Origin: Pseudoxanthomonas sp. CF385
GTDB lineage: Bacteria; Pseudomonadota; Gammaproteobacteria; Xanthomonadales; Xanthomonadaceae
DNA length: 64,000 nt
Reading direction: 5' to 3'
NCBI RefSeq assembly: GCF_900104255.1
Contig: NZ_FNKZ01000001.1
Coordinates: 1-64,000 of the forward strand
Shown here: piece by piece, positions 1-54,946 of the stretch
Position numbering within the stretch: position 1 is the first letter of the stretch
Layout: each line of letters starts with the position of its first letter
Translations under genes and position numbers: made by a program
The notes under the pieces: model-generated
The model's database searches: none
What the model was told of the DNA's origin: nothing
The model's input: the letters and a program-made list of their open reading frames with translations, nothing else

Positions 1-4
1 TCAC

Positions 5-101
5 GTTAGAAAATACGCATGCTATCGATTGTCGCCAGACAGGCAGCTATCTACGTACGAGTGCCCGCTTCCGGAGAAATCGACATGCAACCCCGAATAA
101 G
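5..101 (+). other. End of an upstream cassette without a visible gene
   Basis: About 100 bases precede the first complete attC. CGTTAG at 4-9 could be the 3' end of a previous attC. The bases after it do not mirror the bases before the CTAAC at 104-108, so the boundary is doubtful. No convincing reading frame is present. It may be the tail of a longer cassette that starts outside the window, or a gene-less cassette. Confidence 0.35.
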
Positions 102-161
102 CGCTAACAATTCATTCAAGCCGACGCCGCTTCGCGGCGCGGCTTAATTCAGGCGTTAGCC
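102..161. repeat. attC site 1
   Basis: Sixty-base attC with CTAAC at the left edge and GTTAGCC at the right edge. The arms fold into a stem (GCCGACGCCGC against GCGGCGCGGC) closed by a TTCG loop. It ends the gene-less upstream segment and precedes cassette 1. Confidence 0.88.
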
Positions 162-182
162 GCCACAGGTGAGTTCGTCGCA

Positions 183-473
183 ATGGAAGCTCGTCACATC
201 ATTGGCGTTGCAGCGATGTACGCATTCGCCTATTACGCAATTGCTCGCTCCGCTCTGGCAGATATCCGGCGCTTTGATTCCGAGCTATTCCGGCATCTCG
301 GAGCTACGCCTGGTGTAAGCGCCAAGAACTCCACCGCGATAATTGAGATGCTCTTTGACCGCAGGCTCCCGCTAGAGCATCATCCGCGCGAGTTCCGGGC
401 AAAGCTCTTCCTGGCAAGAGCCATGCTGCTGCTTTCCCCGGCTCTCTTCATCGCCGTTTTCGTGCTTCTGTAG
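183..473 (+). CDS. Integron cassette 1: small membrane protein of unknown function
   Basis: 96 residues. One hydrophobic segment lies near the N-terminus (residues 6-24) and another at the C-terminus (about 78-96), with a charged loop between that is rich in Arg, His and Glu. This suggests a two-pass inner-membrane protein. I do not recognise the family. The gene fills a cassette that starts TTAGCCGCC and ends GGCGGCTAA, perfect reverse complements, so it is an intact recombination unit. The stop is only seven bases before the attC core. Composition is lower in GC than the chromosome, as expected for imported cargo. Confidence 0.7.
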   Translation: MEARHIIGVAAMYAFAYYAIARSALADIRRFDSELFRHLGATPGVSAKNSTAIIEMLFDRRLPLEHHPREFRAKLFLARAMLLLSPALFIAVFVLL

Positions 474-479
474 CGTGGC

Positions 480-539
480 GGCTAACAATTCATTCAAGCC
501 GAACCCGCTTCGCGGGTCGGCTTAATTCAGGCGTTAGGC
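480..539. repeat. attC site 2
   Basis: Sixty-base attC ending GTTAGGC. The stem pairs AAGCCGAACCCGC with GCGGGTCGGCTT around TTCG. One unpaired A on the left arm matches the extrahelical base that integrases read on the folded strand (known for integrons). Confidence 0.9.
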
Positions 540-542
540 CGC

Positions 543-848
543 ATGAGCGACATCGCTACCCGTCAAATGCTGCTTCTGTCTCTCCGACGGGCTTTGCTCG
601 GCGAGGTCCATCCAGTCCTGCGGCAAGCCTCGATTGAGGCCGACACAACGTCACAGATGGTCCGGCTGCGCTTTGAGTACGACGGCAATCCATCAGATGC
701 CGCAAGAGAAAGTTGCTCCAGCGCCGCGGCTGAGGTCATCGCTGACTTTCCGGCGCCATGGCAACTGGACGAGCAGCATGTTTTCGCTCCTGCTCCTGTG
801 CCCCTATCGCCCCTTGGCTTCGTTGCCTACCGGCGTGCGGAGGCCTAG
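543..848 (+). CDS. Integron cassette 2: small acidic soluble protein of unknown function
   Basis: 101 residues, no membrane segment or signal peptide. Asp and Glu are frequent. The pattern is an N-terminal helix, then a strand-like stretch VRLRFEYDG, then a conserved-looking C-terminal half with ADFPAPWQLDE. The size and acidity resemble small immunity proteins, but I cannot name the family, so this is only an impression. The cassette begins TTAGGCCGCA and ends TGCGGCCTAA, a perfect ten-base reciprocal boundary. The ATG lies directly after the upstream attC with no clear ribosome binding site, which is common for cassette genes. Confidence 0.7.
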   Translation: MSDIATRQMLLLSLRRALLGEVHPVLRQASIEADTTSQMVRLRFEYDGNPSDAARESCSSAAAEVIADFPAPWQLDEQHVFAPAPVPLSPLGFVAYRRAEA

Positions 849-854
849 GATGCG

Positions 855-914
855 GCCTAACAATTCATTCAAGCCGAACCCGCTTCGCGGGTCGGCTTAA
901 TTCAGGCGTTAGGT
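855..914. repeat. attC site 3
   Basis: Sixty-base attC, GCCTAAC to GTTAGGT, with the same stem and single extrahelical A as site 2. Confidence 0.9.
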
Positions 915-917
915 GTT

Positions 918-1157
918 ATGGCCAGATCAGCGCGATGGATTGAGAAATTGCCGTATGTCGTACTGATGGCGCTTGGAGTTGGTTTGGCGAGTCTCTGGCA
1001 ATACTCTAAGTACCAAGATGGTCATGGTCTCGCCAATTTTCTAGGCGACAAATTGTCTCCTCTAGTCGAACTTCTAATATTTGTAGGTCTTCCACTGTTG
1101 TTCGTGGCCACTATTGGATGGCGCGCGGTCACCAAGGACTTGGATAGCTCCTTGTAA
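918..1157 (+). CDS. Integron cassette 3: small two-pass membrane protein
   Basis: 79 residues with two hydrophobic stretches (about 12-28 and 48-67) separated by a short polar loop. The N-terminus is basic (MARSARWIEK), suggesting an inside N-terminus. Family unknown. The cassette edges TTAGGTGTTA and TAACACCTAA mirror each other over ten bases, and the stop codon TAA is part of that edge. The start is four bases after the attC and has no visible ribosome binding site. Confidence 0.65.
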   Translation: MARSARWIEKLPYVVLMALGVGLASLWQYSKYQDGHGLANFLGDKLSPLVELLIFVGLPLLFVATIGWRAVTKDLDSSL

Positions 1158-1158
1158 C

Positions 1159-1275
1159 ACCTAACAATTCATTCAAGCCGAACCCGCATCAGGGCGGCGC
1201 CTAAGTTCACGCCTTCAGCTATATTCGCACCCAGTCGCCGCCCCGCTGCGGGTCGGCTTAATTCAGGCGTTAGGC
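1159..1275. repeat. Oversized attC site 4 (117 bp)
   Basis: The outer parts match the 60-bp sites: ACCTAAC with ATTCATTCAAGCCGAACCCGC on the left, then GCGGGTCGGCTT to GTTAGGC on the right. The normal four-base loop is replaced by about 60 bases that include an extra pairing arm (GGGCGGCG against CGCCGCCC). Inside it, AAGTTCACGCCTTCAGC resembles a degenerate attC 3' end. Either this is a long variable terminal structure or it is two sites fused after loss of a cassette. Confidence 0.8.
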
Positions 1276-1277
1276 CC

Positions 1278-1679
1278 ATGAAGAGATTTATCGCATTTCT
1301 GGCAATGCTCGTTTCAATCTCCGGCACATCCTGTGCGCAGTCCACTCCGCCAATCGATGTCGCCGGCCTTACGGAAGCATCAATGAACTTCGATCAAGAG
1401 GGAGTCGGTGCGTTCCTCGACAGCCTCTCTCAGTCTTTCTCCTCTGGCTTCAGCTCCGACCAGGCGGATAAACTTGCCGCAGCAATTGAGGCCCTGCCGG
1501 TCGAGCAGACTGGCAACTGGGAGTACGGCGTGACAGTAAATGGCAAGCCTGAGCGCTTGGTGGTCGTCGCGTTCAAGGACGACATTGATGCCCCGGATCT
1601 TGCGTTCTACTCGTCCGCGGAGTTGGCCGCCCGCATTCAGAGGCAACTAGAGTCATTCGCGCAGGCCCAAGGCTGGTAG
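1278..1679 (+). CDS. Integron cassette 4: exported protein of unknown function
   Basis: 133 residues. The first 20 form a signal peptide: MKR, then a hydrophobic core, then SGTSCAQS. The Cys at 19 or so could be lipidated, but the preceding residues are a poor lipobox, so cleavage by signal peptidase I is as likely. The mature part is acidic and looks alpha/beta, with a strand-like stretch ERLVVVAFKDD. Family unknown. The cassette edges TTAGGCCC and GGGCCTAA are reciprocal. The product would act in the periplasm or at the envelope. Confidence 0.7.
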   Translation: MKRFIAFLAMLVSISGTSCAQSTPPIDVAGLTEASMNFDQEGVGAFLDSLSQSFSSGFSSDQADKLAAAIEALPVEQTGNWEYGVTVNGKPERLVVVAFKDDIDAPDLAFYSSAELAARIQRQLESFAQAQGW

Positions 1680-1680
1680 G

Positions 1681-1740
1681 GCCTAACAATTCATTCAAGC
1701 CGATGCCGCTTCGCGGCACGGCTTAATTCAGGCGTTAGCG
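1681..1740. repeat. attC site 5
   Basis: Sixty-base attC, GCCTAAC to GTTAGCG. The stem is GCCGATGCCGC against GCGGCACGGC around TTCG, a compensated variant of the other stems. Confidence 0.88.
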
Positions 1741-1744
1741 CCCT

Positions 1745-2251
1745 ATGACGATTGATCAGCAAGCTCGCGCAACTTTGGCTGAGTCAACCCGTTGGCTCAT
1801 TGGTTCCCGCATCACAAACTTTCAGTTCGACGATGCCGTGCCAAAGTCAGCCGACCCAGCCATCCGGGAGGTCTACAACCAGTTCCTGTGGCTGCTCTAT
1901 TGCGATCTTCGAGAGCATCGCCTAATTGGCATCGACAAGCTGTCGCAAACGCAAAGGGACGCTGCAGTCCGATGCGTGCTCTTTCTAAAATCGGGGTTTC
2001 CGTACTTATGGCCAGTTCTTTCTCGCGGCCCGTCTGTTCTTCTCATGCTCGCCAACCTGCTGACATTTGGCTGGGCCGGACGCATCTATTTCCGCCGCCT
2101 CAGTCCCGCTGGCGACATGGCCTACTGGCCGTTCTTGTCTCAGTCCCAGTACGCTGCCGCACTTGGTGCGCCTGTGTACTTGTCCGGCGCGGGCGCTGAC
2201 AATTCATTCAAGCCGAACCCGCTTCGCGGGTCGGCTCAATTCAGGCGTTAG
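1745..2251 (+). CDS. Integron cassette 5: unknown protein with an attC-encoded C-terminal tail
   Basis: 168 residues. The first 95 or so look helical and soluble. A hydrophobic stretch follows near 96-112 (SVLLMLANLLTFGWAG). I do not recognise the family. The reading frame runs through the attC: a TAAC to TGAC change at the cassette edge leaves the frame open, so the last 17 or so residues (NSFKPNPLRGSAQFRR and neighbours) come from the recombination site. The stop is the TAG of GTTAG. The cassette edges TTAGCGCCC and GGGCGCTGA are reciprocal except for that one transition. Confidence 0.65.
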   Translation: MTIDQQARATLAESTRWLIGSRITNFQFDDAVPKSADPAIREVYNQFLWLLYCDLREHRLIGIDKLSQTQRDAAVRCVLFLKSGFPYLWPVLSRGPSVLLMLANLLTFGWAGRIYFRRLSPAGDMAYWPFLSQSQYAAALGAPVYLSGAGADNSFKPNPLRGSAQFRR

Positions 2252-2253
2252 CG
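2194..2253. repeat. attC site 6 (edge mutation)
   Basis: Sixty-base attC with CGCTGAC instead of CGCTAAC at the left edge and GTTAGCG at the right. The stem and TTCG loop are intact. It overlaps the 3' end of the cassette 5 gene. Confidence 0.87.
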
Positions 2254-2258
2254 GGCTG

Positions 2259-2714
2259 ATGGAAGAGTACGAGCGCAACATCCTCAAGCACATCGATGAA
2301 CATGGGTGCAGTGTCACCTCTGTCTTCGATCCGGACGAGAAGGAGCCGCCCTTCTCGTACTCCATTGGCGTAGCCAGATCGTCCGGCGCTCCCGAAATCA
2401 TTGTCGTTGGGCTCAACTCCAAGCTGTCGCACTGGATGGTCAATGAGTACAACCGTCGGTGCCAAGCGGGTGAGAGGTTTCAACCAGGCGTGCTGTACCT
2501 CGACTTCCTGGAAGGGTTCGCGGTCCAGTTTCGCCAAGTTGCGCGTGAGCATCGCGCTGAATACATGCGTTCCGCCTGTTGGCTCCACGACGGGCCAGAC
2601 TTTGACGCGGTGCAGCTAGTCTGGCCAAGCACGTCCGGAGTGTGGCCATGGGATGCCGAGGCCTCAGATTGGTTCCGCAGTAACCAACCTTTGCTGGCGG
2701 GTGAGGCGGCGTGA
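2259..2714 (+). CDS. Integron cassette 6: DUF4262-like protein
   Basis: 151 residues, soluble. The frame extends upstream through cassette 5, but ATG 2259 is chosen because it directly follows the attC, as in the other cassettes. The pattern of a DPDEKEPPFSYSIGV segment, then PEIIVVGL, then a C-terminal VQLVWPS..GVWPWD matches the DUF4262 family as I know it. The biochemical role of that family is unknown. It recurs in accessory regions and has been seen near toxin or defence genes. The cassette edges TTAGCGGGC and GCCCGCTAA are perfectly reciprocal. Confidence 0.75.
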   Translation: MEEYERNILKHIDEHGCSVTSVFDPDEKEPPFSYSIGVARSSGAPEIIVVGLNSKLSHWMVNEYNRRCQAGERFQPGVLYLDFLEGFAVQFRQVAREHRAEYMRSACWLHDGPDFDAVQLVWPSTSGVWPWDAEASDWFRSNQPLLAGEAA

Positions 2715-2718
2715 CGCC

Positions 2719-2778
2719 CGCTAACAGTTCATTCAAACCGAATCCGCTTCGCGGATCAGCTTGATTCAAGCACTAGGG
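2719..2778. repeat. attC site 7 (partly decayed)
   Basis: CGCTAAC at the left edge is intact. The right edge reads ACTAGGG where GTTAGGG is expected, and ATTCAAGC replaces TTCAGGCG nearby. The stem persists (AATCCGC against GCGGATC). Decay rises toward the distal end of the array. Confidence 0.75.
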
Positions 2779-2783
2779 CGTAG

Positions 2784-3014
2784 ATGACCATCCGCGAAGA
2801 ACTAGTGAGAGCCCGACGACGCTGCTTGGCACTTATGCTCGGCGGTACAGTTGCCTGGGGCGCACTTGTTCTTAGCATTGCCATGCTATCGAGCAACGGC
2901 TCGCCGCCATGGATCTTCCAAGCAGCTGTTCCGCTGTTCGCAGCCGTTCTTCTTGGGGTGCTCGGTATCAATTTCCTTGTTCGCCGCCCCAAGTGCCATG
3001 GGAACCTTAGGTGA
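2784..3014 (+). CDS. Integron cassette 7: small two-pass membrane protein
   Basis: 76 residues: a basic N-terminus (REELVRARRR), a hydrophobic segment near 16-35, a short loop, a second segment near 45-65 and a basic tail. Predicted N-in, C-in inner-membrane protein of unknown family. Its cassette edge CTAGGGCG mirrors CGCCCTAA except at the mutated base of the upstream site. About 90 bases between the stop and the next attC have no gene. Confidence 0.6.
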   Translation: MTIREELVRARRRCLALMLGGTVAWGALVLSIAMLSSNGSPPWIFQAAVPLFAAVLLGVLGINFLVRRPKCHGNLR

Positions 3015-3101
3015 ATCGGCCCCTTTTCCGCGCGCCCTCTCTTGGGCGGGCCGGCGCAGAGTTGCCCTTTCTGCAAGGTCAGCCTAGATGCGCCGGCTGC
3101 G

Positions 3102-3157
3102 CCCTAACGGTTCATTCAAGCCGAACGCGCTTCGCGGCTCGGCTCAAACCCGGTGCC
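3102..3157. repeat. attC site 8, terminal and decayed
   Basis: The left half is clear (CCCTAAC, TTCATTCAAGCCGAACGCGC, TTCG, GCGGCTCGGCT). The right half reads AAACCCGGTGCCGC, with no GTTAG core. This is the last recognisable site and ends the array. Confidence 0.7.
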
Positions 3158-3164
3158 GCACTGC

Positions 3165-3465: not shown

Positions 3466-3975
3466 GTGATCCAACTCCCTGTCAGAGACCCCTGCGATCT
3501 GTGCGTCGCCGCCCGCGACGAGCCATGGAAGATCATCGATGAGAGCGCACATACGCTGACCGTGATCAATCCGTGGCAGTTCGAAACCGGACAGTGCTGC
3601 GTGATCACGCGACGGCATGTCGCGACGCTGCTCGATCTTTCCGACGAGGAATGCGCGGCCATCATGACTTCCGCCAAACGCGCCGCCGAGGCGCTGGTCA
3701 GGACCTACCGACCGCTCGGCGTTCTGACGTTCCAGAACAACGGTGTGTACAGCGGACAGGAAACGCCCCACTTCCATTTCCACGTCGTGCCCCGCCAACC
3801 AGGCAGCGATTGGGGCATCGGGCCACCGCAGCTTGCGACGTTCGACGGTGCGGGGCGGGAACGGGGCACCGTGCACGAGCGGGACGGCGATGCGGAGCGG
3901 ATGACGCGCGTCCGCGTTCCCGTCGACCAGCTGGTCGAGACCGTAAAGCGGATCCGTTCAAATCTTCCCGCGTGA
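3466..3975 (+). CDS. HIT family nucleotide hydrolase or transferase
   Basis: 169 residues. The GTG start is chosen because AGGAGGA sits six bases upstream and the conserved N-terminus (DPCDLC) follows. The signature histidine triad is HFHFHVV, with His at 102, 104 and 106; the middle one should carry the nucleotidyl intermediate. The CDLC pair near residues 8-11 is the partial zinc site often seen in bacterial HIT proteins. HIT enzymes hydrolyse AMP-linked or dinucleoside substrates; the substrate here is unknown. It stands alone between the integron edge and a secreted TPR-like protein. Confidence 0.88.
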   Translation: MIQLPVRDPCDLCVAARDEPWKIIDESAHTLTVINPWQFETGQCCVITRRHVATLLDLSDEECAAIMTSAKRAAEALVRTYRPLGVLTFQNNGVYSGQETPHFHFHVVPRQPGSDWGIGPPQLATFDGAGRERGTVHERDGDAERMTRVRVPVDQLVETVKRIRSNLPA

Positions 3976-4097: not shown

Positions 4098-4985
4098 ATG
4101 CCACTCCATCGCCTCATGGCGGCCGTCGCGGCTGCCGGTCTGCTGGCGTGCGCCGGCGTTGCCGACGCCGCCGACCGCCGCGTCCAGCTCGAACTCGTCA
4201 ACGACAGCGATGCGCCCATCGTCGGCGTGTCGGTCGAGCGCACCAGCGTCTTCTCCAGCAAGACGTTCGGCGGCGGGGAGATCGAGCTCGACCGACCGCT
4301 GGCGCCCGGCCAGTCGCGCACCTTCACCGTCGAGATCGGCGAGCACCACGACACGATGCCTTACGCCATGCGCTGGCGCTGGACACCGTTCGGCAGCTGC
4401 CACGGCAGTGCGGGCGTCCCCGCGCAGGGAGACGCCTTCAGCGTGAAGACCGGTGCCGCGACCTGCCGCGGCGGCAAGCCGTTGCCGGGCCGCCGCACAG
4501 ACGGGCGCGATGCGGTGCTCGCGGATGCACGCCGCACGGGGGACGTCGATGAAGCGCGCGACCTGTACGCGGCTCTGCTCGCGCGCAATCCCGAGGACGT
4601 GGATGTGCTGCATGCGCGGGCGCATTCGCTGATCGAGCACAGCAAGGGCGAGTTCGCCGGCTATCTGAGCGATGCGGCCATCGAGGATCTGCAGACGGCG
4701 CTGCGCCTCAGCACCGCACCCGCCGCGCGGCTGCACTACCACCGGGACCTGATGGTCCAGTTCCTCAACCACAAGCGCTGGAAGGATGCGCTGCCGCATG
4801 CCGATGCCCTGGTGGCCGGTCAGCCTGACACGCTCGACCACCTGATCTACCGCGCCTTCACCTATTGCGAGCTGGGCAATGTGGCGAAGGCGACGCAGGA
4901 CGAACAACTGCTGGCCGAGAAGGCGGGACAGGCGATTCCTGCCGACAAGACATGCGCCGCGCGGAAAGCCGCCGACAAGCGCTGA
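4098..4985 (+). CDS. Exported protein with TPR-like repeats
   Basis: 295 residues. ATG 4098 is preferred because AGGGG precedes it by seven bases and a signal peptide follows (MPLHRLMAAV, hydrophobic core, cleavage near VADAAD). Residues 25-125 look beta-rich and end in a Cys-containing segment. From about 130 on, helix pairs of tetratricopeptide style appear (DEARDLYAALLARNPEDVDVL; later KDALPHADALVAGQPDTLDH). Such repeats bind other proteins. Probably periplasmic; partner unknown. It converges on the response regulator gene that starts on the other strand. Confidence 0.7.
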   Translation: MPLHRLMAAVAAAGLLACAGVADAADRRVQLELVNDSDAPIVGVSVERTSVFSSKTFGGGEIELDRPLAPGQSRTFTVEIGEHHDTMPYAMRWRWTPFGSCHGSAGVPAQGDAFSVKTGAATCRGGKPLPGRRTDGRDAVLADARRTGDVDEARDLYAALLARNPEDVDVLHARAHSLIEHSKGEFAGYLSDAAIEDLQTALRLSTAPAARLHYHRDLMVQFLNHKRWKDALPHADALVAGQPDTLDHLIYRAFTYCELGNVAKATQDEQLLAEKAGQAIPADKTCAARKAADKR

Positions 4986-5000: not shown

Positions 5001-5669
5001 CTACTCGCCTTCGTCGGGCGGCAGCACCAGGCCGTCCGGATCGACCGCCAGTCGGCCGGCGGCGAGTACCGCCTGCGTACGATTGGTGACGTGCAGCTTG
5101 CGCAGGATGGCGGTGACATGCGCCTTGATCGTGGCCTCGGACACGCCCAGGTCGTAAGCAATCTGCTTGTTGAGGCGGCCCGCGCCGAGCATCTGCAACA
5201 CCTTGAACTGCTGCGGGGTGAGGTCGCGCAGGCGCTGCGCGGTTTCCTGTTCGTCGCGGGACGTGGCCGGCGCGCTGTGCGCTTCGTCCGGAACCCAGCG
5301 TTCGCCGTCGAGCACGGCCCCGATCGCCTGGCCGATGGTGTCCGAATCGGCGGACTTGGGAATGAAGCCCAGCGCACCGTGGTCGAGTGCGCGGCGCATG
5401 ACCGCCGGCTCCTCGCGCGCGGACACGATGACCACCGGCAACTGCGGGTGCAGCGCGCGCAGGTGCACCAGCGCATTGAAGCCGTGTGCGCCGGGCATGT
5501 TGAGGTCCATCAGCAGCAGGTCGGCGTCCGGGTGCGCGTCGACGAGCACGTAGAGGGCGTCGACGCTGTCGGCTTCATGCAGCCTGACCCCGGGCATCAC
5601 GCGTTGCACGGCGCCGCGCAGCGCCTCGCGGAACAGCGGGTGATCGTCGGCAATCAGCAGGGTGGGCAT
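5001..5669 (-). CDS. NarL/LuxR-type response regulator
   Basis: 222 residues from MPTLLIADDH; a start five codons upstream is also possible. The receiver domain (1-120) has the acidic pair D8/D9, phospho-acceptor D55 (LLLMDLNMPG) and the conserved Lys in GFIPKSA. The LuxR-type HTH (about 150-210) reads LTPQQFKVLQMLGAG, then SEATIKAHVTAILRKL. It lies just downstream of acs on the same strand. In Pseudomonas the LuxR-type regulator ErdR controls acs, and xanthomonads keep a regulator beside acs, so control of acetate use is a reasonable inference. No histidine kinase gene is in the window. Confidence 0.88.
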   Translation of the reverse strand: MPTLLIADDHPLFREALRGAVQRVMPGVRLHEADSVDALYVLVDAHPDADLLLMDLNMPGAHGFNALVHLRALHPQLPVVIVSAREEPAVMRRALDHGALGFIPKSADSDTIGQAIGAVLDGERWVPDEAHSAPATSRDEQETAQRLRDLTPQQFKVLQMLGAGRLNKQIAYDLGVSEATIKAHVTAILRKLHVTNRTQAVLAAGRLAVDPDGLVLPPDEGE

Positions 5670-5775
5670 GGCGGTGCGGTCCATCGTAAGGAGAAAGGGT
5701 AATCCGTGATGCGTTGCCTGCACAGGGCGGCGTGTCCCGCTCCGTGCAGCCCGCCTGCCCTCCCCAGCAAGCGGG

Positions 5776-7719
5776 TTACTTCACCTTGCGTTCGGCCACC
5801 AGCGATTCGACCACCGACGGGTCGGCCAGCGTCGAGGTATCGCCCAGCTGCTCCGGCGCGTTCTCGGCGATCTTGCGCAGGATGCGGCGCATGATCTTGC
5901 CCGAACGCGTCTTCGGCAGGCCCGGCGCCCACTGCAGGTGGTCCGGCGTGGCGATCGGGCCGATCTCCTTCCGAACCCAGGCCACGAGCTCCTTCAGCAG
6001 CTCGTCGCTCTGCGCTTCGCCGGCCTTGAGGGTGACGTAGGCATAGATGCCCTGGCCCTTGATGTCGTGCGGGAAGCCGACCACGGCGGCCTCGGCGACC
6101 TTCGGATGCGCGACCAGCGCGCTTTCCACCTCGGCGGTGCCGATGCGATGGCCGGAGACGTTGATGACGTCGTCGACGCGGCCGGTGATCCAGTAATAGC
6201 CATCGGCATCGCGGCGGCAACCGTCGCCGGTGAAGTAGGTGCCCGGATACGTGCGGAAGTAGGTGTCGATGAAGCGCTGGTGGTCGCCGTACACGGTGCG
6301 CATCTGGCCGGGCCAGGAATCCAGCAGCACCAGGTTGCCTTCGGTGGCGCCATCCAGCTGCTCGCCATTGGCATCGACCAGCGCCGGCCGCACGCCGAAG
6401 AACGGCAGCGTGGCCGAGCCGGGCTTGAGGTCGATGGCGCCCGCCAACGGGGTGATCAGGATGCCGCCGGTCTCGGTCTGCCACCACGTATCGACGATGG
6501 GGCAGCGTGCGTCGCCGACCACGTCGTAGTACCAGCGCCAGGCTTCCGGATTGATCGGCTCGCCCACGCTGCCCAGCAGGCGCAGCGACGCCCGCGAGGT
6601 CCTCTTCACCGGCGCCTCGCCCTCGCGCATCAGCGCGCGGATCGCGGTGGGGGCGGTGTAGAAGATGGTGACCTTGTGCTTGTCGATGACTTCCCAGAAA
6701 CGCGACACGTTCGGGTAGTTCGGCACGCCTTCGAACATCACCGCGGTGGCGCCGTTGGCGAGCGGTCCGTAGACGATGTAGCTGTGGCCGGTGACCCAGC
6801 CGACGTCGGCGGTGCACCAGTAGATGTCGTCTTCGCGCAGGTCGAACACGGCCTCGTGCGTGTACGCCGCATACAGCAGGTAGCCGCCGGTGGTGTGCAG
6901 CACGCCCTTCGGCTTGCCGGTGGAACCGGAGGTATAGAGGATGAAGAGCGGGTCCTCGGCGTTCATGCGCTCGGGCTCGCACTCGGCCGGCTGCGCGTCG
7001 ACGACGGCGTCGAACCAGCGGTCGCGCGGCATCTGCATGTCCACGGCGCCGCCGGTGTGGCGCACGACCAGGACGGTTTCCACCGAGTTCGTGCCCGGCA
7101 GTTTCAACGCGGCGTCGACGTTCGCCTTCAGCGGCACCTTCTTGCCGCCGCGCAGGCCTTCGTCGGCGGTGATGATCAGCTTGCTGCCACAGTCGGCCAC
7201 GCGGTCGGCGATGGAATTGGGCGCGAAGCCGCCGAACACCACCGAGTGGATCGCGCCGATGCGCGCGCAGGCCAGCATGGCGACCGCGGCGTCCGGGATC
7301 ATCGGCAGGTAGATGGTGATGCGGTCGCCCTTCTGCACGCCGAGCGCGCGCAGCGCGTTGGCCAGCTTGCAGGTGCGCTCGTACAGCTCGCGGTAGGTGA
7401 CGCCATACGACGGCGTGTCCGGACCGTCCGGCTCGAACAGCAGTGCGACCTTGTCGCCGCGCTCGGCCAGTTGGCGGTCCAGGCAGTTGACGCTGGCGTT
7501 GAGCTCGCCGTCGGCGAACCAGCGGATGTGGAAATCGTCCAGCGCGTAGCTGACGTCCTTGATCCGGGTCGGCTTCTTGAACCACTGCAGGCGCTCGGCG
7601 GCCTGGCCCCAGAAGGCCTCCGGATCGTCGATCGAGGCCTGGTAGTCGCGCTGGTATTGCTCGCGCGTGATGCGGGCCTTGGCCGCGAATTCCGGCTTGA
7701 CCGGATACAGGTCAGTCAT
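5776..7719 (-). CDS. acs: Acetyl-CoA synthetase
   Basis: 647 residues, close to the usual 650. Acs turns acetate, ATP and CoA into acetyl-CoA, AMP and pyrophosphate through acetyl-AMP. Visible motifs are the ATP loop [11 protein letters not shown], the WWQTETGG adenine-site motif, and the C-terminal PKTRSGK with Lys608, the residue controlled by acetylation in the family. The ribosome binding site GGGAGGAC lies just upstream of ATG 7719. Downstream is the response regulator; upstream and divergent are the DcaP porin and the MFS transporter. Together they suggest import and activation of acetate or related short carboxylates. Confidence 0.97.
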
Positions 7720-54831: not shown

Positions 54832-54946
54832 GCACCCGTCGTGGCAAGCGACCAGGGGCGCCAAGCTGGTAATGGAACAGGGGCCAGCAATGCGCACGCC
54901 GGGGATGCCGGGGGCCGGTAGTCGGGGGACTGCCGGCCCCTTTTTT
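54832..54946 (+). ncRNA. Candidate RpoN-dependent small RNA
   Basis: About 115 nt from the predicted sigma-54 start to a strong terminator. No reading frame ends within it; the only frame (54830) runs through the terminator. The interior is purine-rich (GGTAATGGAACAGGGG). Strand, length and the promoter-terminator pair support a small RNA; no known family is recognised. Confidence 0.5.
54911..54946 (+). terminator. Intrinsic terminator of the RNA candidate
   Basis: Thirteen-base stem GGGGCCGGTAGTC / GACTGCCGGCCCC (one G-U pair) with a four-base loop, followed by TTTTTT. Confidence 0.88.

Follow-up and report, generated by a model that had tools for sequence, protein, structure and literature searches.

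The DNA analysed here (the window) is a stretch of 64,000 nucleotides, positions 1 to 64,000 of contig NZ_FNKZ01000001.1 (C1) of Pseudoxanthomonas sp. CF385 (assembly GCF_900104255.1, genome G000 below). It opens with an integron cassette array of eight attC sites and seven one-gene cassettes (104–3159), which in related genomes lies between genes read as crbS and crbR (the crb array). The chromosome probably has a second integron platform, one without an integrase of its own that would be served in trans by a distant integrase, and this array is its distal end. By sequence, there is one integron integrase gene (intI), two arrays and two homologous attI platforms, and the locus is conserved in the clade. 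We infer that IntI recombines the crb attI, that the promoter Pc beside it is active, and that IntI is the mover of the cassettes shared between arrays. In the proposed mechanism, IntI from an integron between comEC and lolD would have two targets: it would insert cassette circles bearing attC at its own attI and, acting in trans, at the attI beside crbS. Pc would transcribe the newest crb cassettes, and cassettes would move between the two arrays. Service in trans by the distant integrase is the most economical reading; its main rival, that the crb array is a fossil, is hardest to set aside for G000 itself.

A cassette array cut by the end of the contig

The original prediction described eight attC-like sites and seven single-gene cassettes in one direction at the start of the window, and this description held. 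Eight copies of CTAACAATTCATTCAAGCCG, with at most three mismatches, were found between window positions 104 and 3123, all on the + strand, against 0.00 expected from 100 dinucleotide shuffles of the 64 kb. All seven cassette open reading frames (ORFs) are single and on the + strand, with the start codon 4–23 nt past the preceding attC. Tandem attC with an R''/R' core and a conserved imperfect hairpin, and single co-oriented ORFs between them, identify the locus as an integron cassette array. As predicted, it is of the sedentary integron type, and its distal end lies inside the window.

The expected hairpin, with one extrahelical base, is supported by an alignment of 24 attC out of the 37 in the genome, in which 95.4% of cells pair; seven of the aligned sites come from the window, and 23 rows are distinct. 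The covariation score was 0.104 compared with 0.030 in shuffles, and none of 500 shuffles scored as high. Cells with changes on both sides numbered 11, compared with 2.7 in shuffles, and were confined to two pairs, a number of pairs that 324 of the 500 shuffles reached. Folding of five window attC as single-stranded DNA gave z-scores of −4.8, −4.3, −6.8, −3.5 and, for the last site, −1.5.

The first base of the window is also the first base, and the physical end, of C1; the array was therefore cut by the assembly and not by the window. The G000 assembly comprises seven contigs (3.88 Mb), and its attC lie at four contig ends: the start of C1 (the window), the start of C2, the end of C3 and the end of C4. 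The attC are of the same type at all four. The array had been expected to continue leftwards, and further attC were indeed found on C4, but by gene order no intI belongs to it. Throughout the genome, the sole integron integrase above the TIGR02249 cut-off (454.9 bits) is on C3, where it adjoins a comEC gene (Pfam Competence). We take the other genes beside it to be exbB and msbA, and those flanking the C2 array are presumably lolD and lolC. C4 encodes a 1156-aa kinase with PAS, HisKA, HATPase and receiver domains, which is read as CrbS; the LuxR-type regulator in the window is read as CrbR. PMC5436829 and PMC5715377 describe control of acs by CrbS/CrbR in other bacteria. The proximal end of the array lies right after crbS. 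Both this crbS–attI end and the distal end in the window are without intI, and the C4–C1 gap, which is unsequenced, lies between them.

Gene order in related genomes

The interval between crbS and crbR was examined in 26 of 38 genomes of the genus; outside this sample are G034 (wrong side of crbS) and 11 others. An attC array was present in the interval in 15 of the 26, G000 included, and 11 had no forward attC there. (One weak reverse attC-like match was seen in the crb gap of G037.) The crb locus gave no IntI match in the 15 array-bearing genomes, and nowhere at this locus does an intI adjoin its own attI, as in a complete sedentary chromosomal integron. In six genomes the order crbS–array–crbR is unbroken, with 39 attC in G024, 29 in G012, 17 in G028, 14 in G013, six in G022 and three in G018; G028, G024 and G022 are single-contig genomes. 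The array is, by definition, a CALIN (cluster of attC sites lacking integrases), having at least two attC and no intI nearby.

The integrase gene is directly beside comEC in 14 of the 15 crb-array genomes. The remaining one, G012, has at its comEC locus (L249) an integrase cut down to a C-terminal remnant, with attI and cassettes retained. The order intI–attI–array–lolD is unbroken in G028 (40 attC), G009 (20) and G013 (21). In the single contig of G028, 1.5 Mb separates intI (2.55 Mb) from the crb array (4.05 Mb). By this gene order the array ends of G000 are paired as C3 with C2 and C4 with C1.

We also searched 80 named crbS loci, which are largely the same assemblies as the genus genomes and so form no independent second sample. 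None of the 80 had an intI match. Eight, all Pseudoxanthomonas, had an attI core (Root630, PXM01, PXM02, PXM03, 3HH-4, P. mexicana DSM 17121, P. japonensis DSM 17109 and one metagenome-assembled genome), and attC were present in seven of these eight. One locus, L221, is titled Bacillus subtilis SK7B5; its crbS is 71% identical to that of this Pseudoxanthomonas and is listed among Stenotrophomonas, perhaps from a mislabelled or mixed assembly.

An attI platform after crbS

A block resembling the attI region linked to intI was found right after crbS in 14 of the 15 genomes. The exception is G022, where attI was recognised at neither place. Its integrase gene is present between comEC and lolD (L246); neither attC nor cassettes were found at that locus, and six attC lie at crb. 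The parts of the crb platform are TTGACG (14 of 14), a −10-like box, a CCCC–spacer–GGGG motif and GGGGTCTAnTAGGyG, followed by the GTTA of the first cassette. The G000 core and upstream block (L028:12526) are by sequence a predicted attI, and the promoter-like box on C4, TTGACG-18-CAGAAT, is taken as a putative Pc. Each of the two G000 platforms has one such promoter-like site matching at 9 of 12 positions, compared with 0.1 in shuffles.

Both attI blocks could be compared in 12 genomes, excluding G012, G022 and G013, whose intI-side block fell below the recovery threshold. The crb block was 0.803 identical to the genome's own intI-linked block, compared with 0.760 over all pairs (label permutation with relatedness ignored, p 5e-5). 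Platform identity in shuffled sequence had a mean of 0.58 and a maximum of 0.67. The highest own-pair values were in G007 (0.95) and G029 (0.92).

Cassettes shared between the two arrays

Cassettes were matched at 97% identity or more over at least 95% of their length in the 12 genomes with both arrays. Cassettes of the crb array had 20 matches in 6105 comparisons with the genome's own intI-linked array or arrays, compared with 11 in 53871 comparisons with other genomes. The shared crb cassettes were in G024 (12), G020 (5), G028 (2) and G019 (1), and the other eight genomes had none. Among 25 such pairs, none extends rightward past the flanking attC. On the left, 24 stay within the flanking attC (5 of them stopping short of it), and one includes the neighbouring cassette.

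Sharing between species seemed somewhat likelier near the crb attI. The attI-proximal crb cassette had a relative of at least 75% identity in another genome in 6 of the 12 genomes, the distal cassette in none of 10 (p 0.015); relatives elsewhere at the same level were found for 9 of 27 cassettes in the first three positions and 1 of 27 in the last three (p 0.011). Spearman coefficients for position against sharing were −0.15 to −0.21. These tests exclude G020, G017 and G022, and the distal set also G007 and G014, whose distal contigs yield no full cassette. Arrays were compared in stretches of up to 20 kb, with cassettes numbered on across separate contigs, and are thus partial. No position trend was seen in five intI-linked arrays. 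The first crb cassettes of G024 and of G028 are each 98–99% identical to a cassette in another species.

A second integron integrase, 48–49% identical to that of G000, was observed in G024 (C1:980090-981028) and G036 (C18:1686-2624). In G024 it adjoins a third array with cassettes 97–100% identical to ones of the crb array.

Multiple attI-like platforms in the Lysobacteraceae

The attI core, with at most one mismatch, was found in 22 of the 38 genus genomes and 70 of 395 family genomes. The 395 genomes gave 120 matches, not all of which need be attI, compared with 8 for a reversed-pattern control. At least two cores, and up to five (in G011), were present in 34 of the 395. Exactly one intI above the cut-off was found in 30 of these 34, two in G024 and G036, and none in G012 and G111.

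Forty core sites from 17 genomes were examined further: 16 of the 34 genomes with at least two core matches were chosen, together with G021, and the set takes in differing variants (G026, G027, G049 and G064). CCCC precedes the core at 37 of the 40 sites, and TTGAC is at the expected place at 30; G011 has TTGAAC, G036 and G049 have other variants, and one G064 site has nothing clear. Thirty-three are followed by attC, and the other seven have 165–940 nt of downstream sequence in the sample. Identity of the 75-nt blocks, which in both groups include the core used for selection, was 0.832 within genomes (37 pairs, 10 of them from G011) compared with 0.685 between genomes (743 pairs). A control block 200–275 nt upstream showed little difference (0.650 compared with 0.616).

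In G011 the likeness of the five copies covers about 185 nt and in most pairs stops abruptly. Of these copies, one lies at intI, a second is accompanied by an integrase fragment, and three have no integrase match in the stretch examined. Two of the three platforms of G036 are alike over about 165 nt. G111, in which no integrase exceeded the cut-off, has a truncated intI beside both platforms. We considered a third platform locus common to G018, G019, G020 and G028 and rejected it, as only G019 and G020 have flanking DNA in common (122 nt, 76%).

On balance we lean towards regarding the integron of the Lysobacteraceae as a distributed system, in which one intI would serve several scattered attI platforms (up to five, in G011). 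The platform would be a discrete, dispersed module of about 165–190 nt (G036 and G011), with copies more alike within than between genomes.

Alternative explanations

Several observations weigh against service of the crb platform in trans. As the C4–C1 gap is unsequenced, the pairing of C4 with C1 in G000 rests on relatives. The two attI blocks of G000 are only 72% alike and form two subtypes, and at the 97% level none of its 15 crb cassettes recurs in the intI-linked array of the same genome. The own-pair effect differs between genomes: the intI-side block of the genome itself has first rank in 5 of 12, and for 10 of the 12 a crb block from another genome is closer still, as expected from descent. 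Twelve of the 20 shared cassettes are from G024, and five of these match only the array beside its second integrase. The position effect fell to p 0.087 when the proximal and distal cassettes of the same 10 genomes were compared (4 against 0), and to p 0.10 for the first and last three at 90% identity. Cassette movement could also come from homologous recombination at attC repeats.

The best-surviving rival, which is how CALINs are usually interpreted, is that a second complete integron lost its intI long ago and left the crb array behind, with attI and cassettes as relics that are immobile now. The integrase fragment beside one G011 platform and the truncated genes beside both G111 platforms are what such a history would leave. 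The degenerate distal attC of the window, the lack of recent cassette sharing in G000 and the closeness of most crb blocks to another genome's crb block fit it as well, as does G012, which has a 29-attC crb array with a mere integrase remnant at its comEC locus. Against this, the platform is retained in 14 of 15 species though the spacers vary, G019, G020, G024 and G028 have near-identical cassettes, bounded by attC, in arrays of both kinds, and the first crb cassettes of G024 and G028 closely match those of other species. We regard a fossil as unlikely for these reasons, while granting it a real share of the probability.

A second possibility is that homologous recombination alone homogenises arrays and platforms, with no action of IntI in trans. 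The attC and attI repeats would supply the homology, and the likeness of platforms within a genome fits gene conversion, but 24 of the 25 shared segments stop at attC and comprise a single cassette, with one pair including a neighbour, and we consider this explanation very unlikely. It is highly improbable that IntI inserted cassettes at a chance attG-like site after crbS that merely resembles attI. Passages of PMC12444791 (E. coli libraries) and PMC12901181 do mention insertion at attG by integrases; here the likeness extends well beyond the crossover bases, over some 75 nt that include TTGACG and GGGGTCTAnTAGGyG, in 14 of 15 species. Finally, assemblies break at repeats and the same attC type occurs at four contig ends, yet there is next to no chance that these ends belong to one integron with the window as the far end of the intI-bearing C3 array, a split that synteny makes unlikely, since comEC/lolD and crbS/crbR bound separate arrays in relatives, the former unbroken in G028, G009 and G013 and the latter in six genomes.

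Relation to known systems

Like a CALIN, the crb array has several attC and cassettes and no intI nearby. Unlike a plain CALIN, it has an attI and a promoter-like box of its own, and its counterparts in relatives show signs of having exchanged cassettes with intI-linked arrays. Text from PMC9024848 describes CALINs as 'proposed to be degraded integrons'. A degraded integron would have no working platform and no new insertions; as far as sequences can tell, the crb platform is kept and cassettes are shared in relatives, with nothing recent in G000. Passages of PMC12444791 report conserved CALIN loci in Xanthomonas and state that mobilisation of CALINs in trans is possible. IntegronFinder 2, as described in part of PMC9024848, is blind to attI outside class 1, so the crb array would be called a plain CALIN.

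The array shares attI, a promoter-like box, one-gene cassettes and species-typical attC with sedentary chromosomal integrons of the Vibrio and Xanthomonas type, but it lacks an adjacent intI: the gene belongs to a different integron, at a distance of 1.5 Mb in G028. A passage of PMC12444791 places the intI of Xanthomonas mostly beside ilvD, whereas here its neighbours are comEC/lolD. The attC of Pseudoxanthomonas themselves have already been published, as an extract of PMC11089894 indicates. Among the publications consulted, one (PMC9892861) reports a CALIN that has an attI of its own, in the Shewanella prophage M16-3; that is a single cryptic prophage, whereas the locus here is chromosomal and conserved in 15 species, with two to five attI cores in 34 of 395 family genomes. 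The delta-attI-type cassettes of class 1 and class 2 mobile integrons, in the relevant section of PMC12901181, likewise have attI sequence away from its usual place that is still used by IntI1. They are mostly short attI ends replacing attC within arrays, whereas here attI platforms start arrays. In the open-licence literature we found no account of multiple attI platforms in Lysobacteraceae.

Should some CALINs prove to be active platforms supplied in trans, current views underestimate how much environmental Gammaproteobacteria capture and express cassettes. One integrase could then give a cell several first positions with several promoters at different chromosomal places. Detection of attI outside class 1 is the missing tool.

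Cassettes and cargo

Positions 1–103 (+) of the window contain the 3' part of one more cassette, which the contig edge truncates; attC site 1 (104–159, +) follows. All the following attC and cassettes are on the + strand. Cassettes 1 (183–473, 96 aa), 2 (543–848, 101 aa) and 3 (918–1157, 79 aa) have no Pfam family and alternate with attC sites 2 (482–537) and 3 (857–912). Site 4 (1161–1273) is a long variant, about twice the usual length, with an extended palindromic stem and a fold z-score of −6.8; another enlarged attC was seen at L027:13789. Cassette 4 (1278–1679, 133 aa) has no family above the cut-off and is followed by site 5 (1683–1738). The ORF of cassette 5 (1745–2251, 168 aa, no Pfam family) runs through its attC, site 6 (2196–2251). 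As its stop lies within that site, the attC encodes the C terminus of the protein; several C3 cassettes likewise end inside the following attC. Cassette 6 (2259–2714, 151 aa) encodes a DUF4262 protein, as had been suspected (PF14081, 135.5 bits, E 1.5e-39). It is followed by site 7 (2721–2776), cassette 7 (2784–3014, 76 aa, no family above the cut-off) and site 8 (3104–3159), the distal end of the array. Sites 7 and 8 are degenerate, and site 8 has lost its GTTAG end. Four lone attC-like motifs with one or two mismatches lie off the arrays in G000 (C1:73011, C1:373456, C1:1904723 and C1:1954616); some may be chance, since a reversed control gave one match.

Cargo searches covered 37 proteins from the cassettes and array borders of the genome, the window contributing 8. 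The idea that the cassettes carry phage-defence genes was neither supported nor excluded: PADLOC (PADLOC-DB, E 0.01) matched none of the 37 to a known or candidate defence family, a result that leaves room for defence genes of unknown kinds. NCBIfam also matched none of the 37. Pfam matched three (DUF4262, MORN_2 and the immunity-like T6SS_Tdi1_C), and PHROGs matched one, to a family without function.

Flanking genes and a small RNA

At the distal border of the array, a chromosomal gene encodes a HIT-domain protein (3466–3975, +). Seven of 14 relatives likewise have this gene to the right of the array (G012, G028, G018, G022, G009, G032 and G017). The next gene encodes a TPR protein (4098–4985, +), detected at this place among relatives in G012 only. 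The right anchor of the locus is the CrbR-like LuxR-family response regulator (5001–5723, −), followed by acetyl-CoA synthetase (acs; 5776–7719, −). The only Rfam match in the window at gathering thresholds was asX1, a Xanthomonadaceae small RNA (RF02235), at 54833–54946 (95.7 bits).

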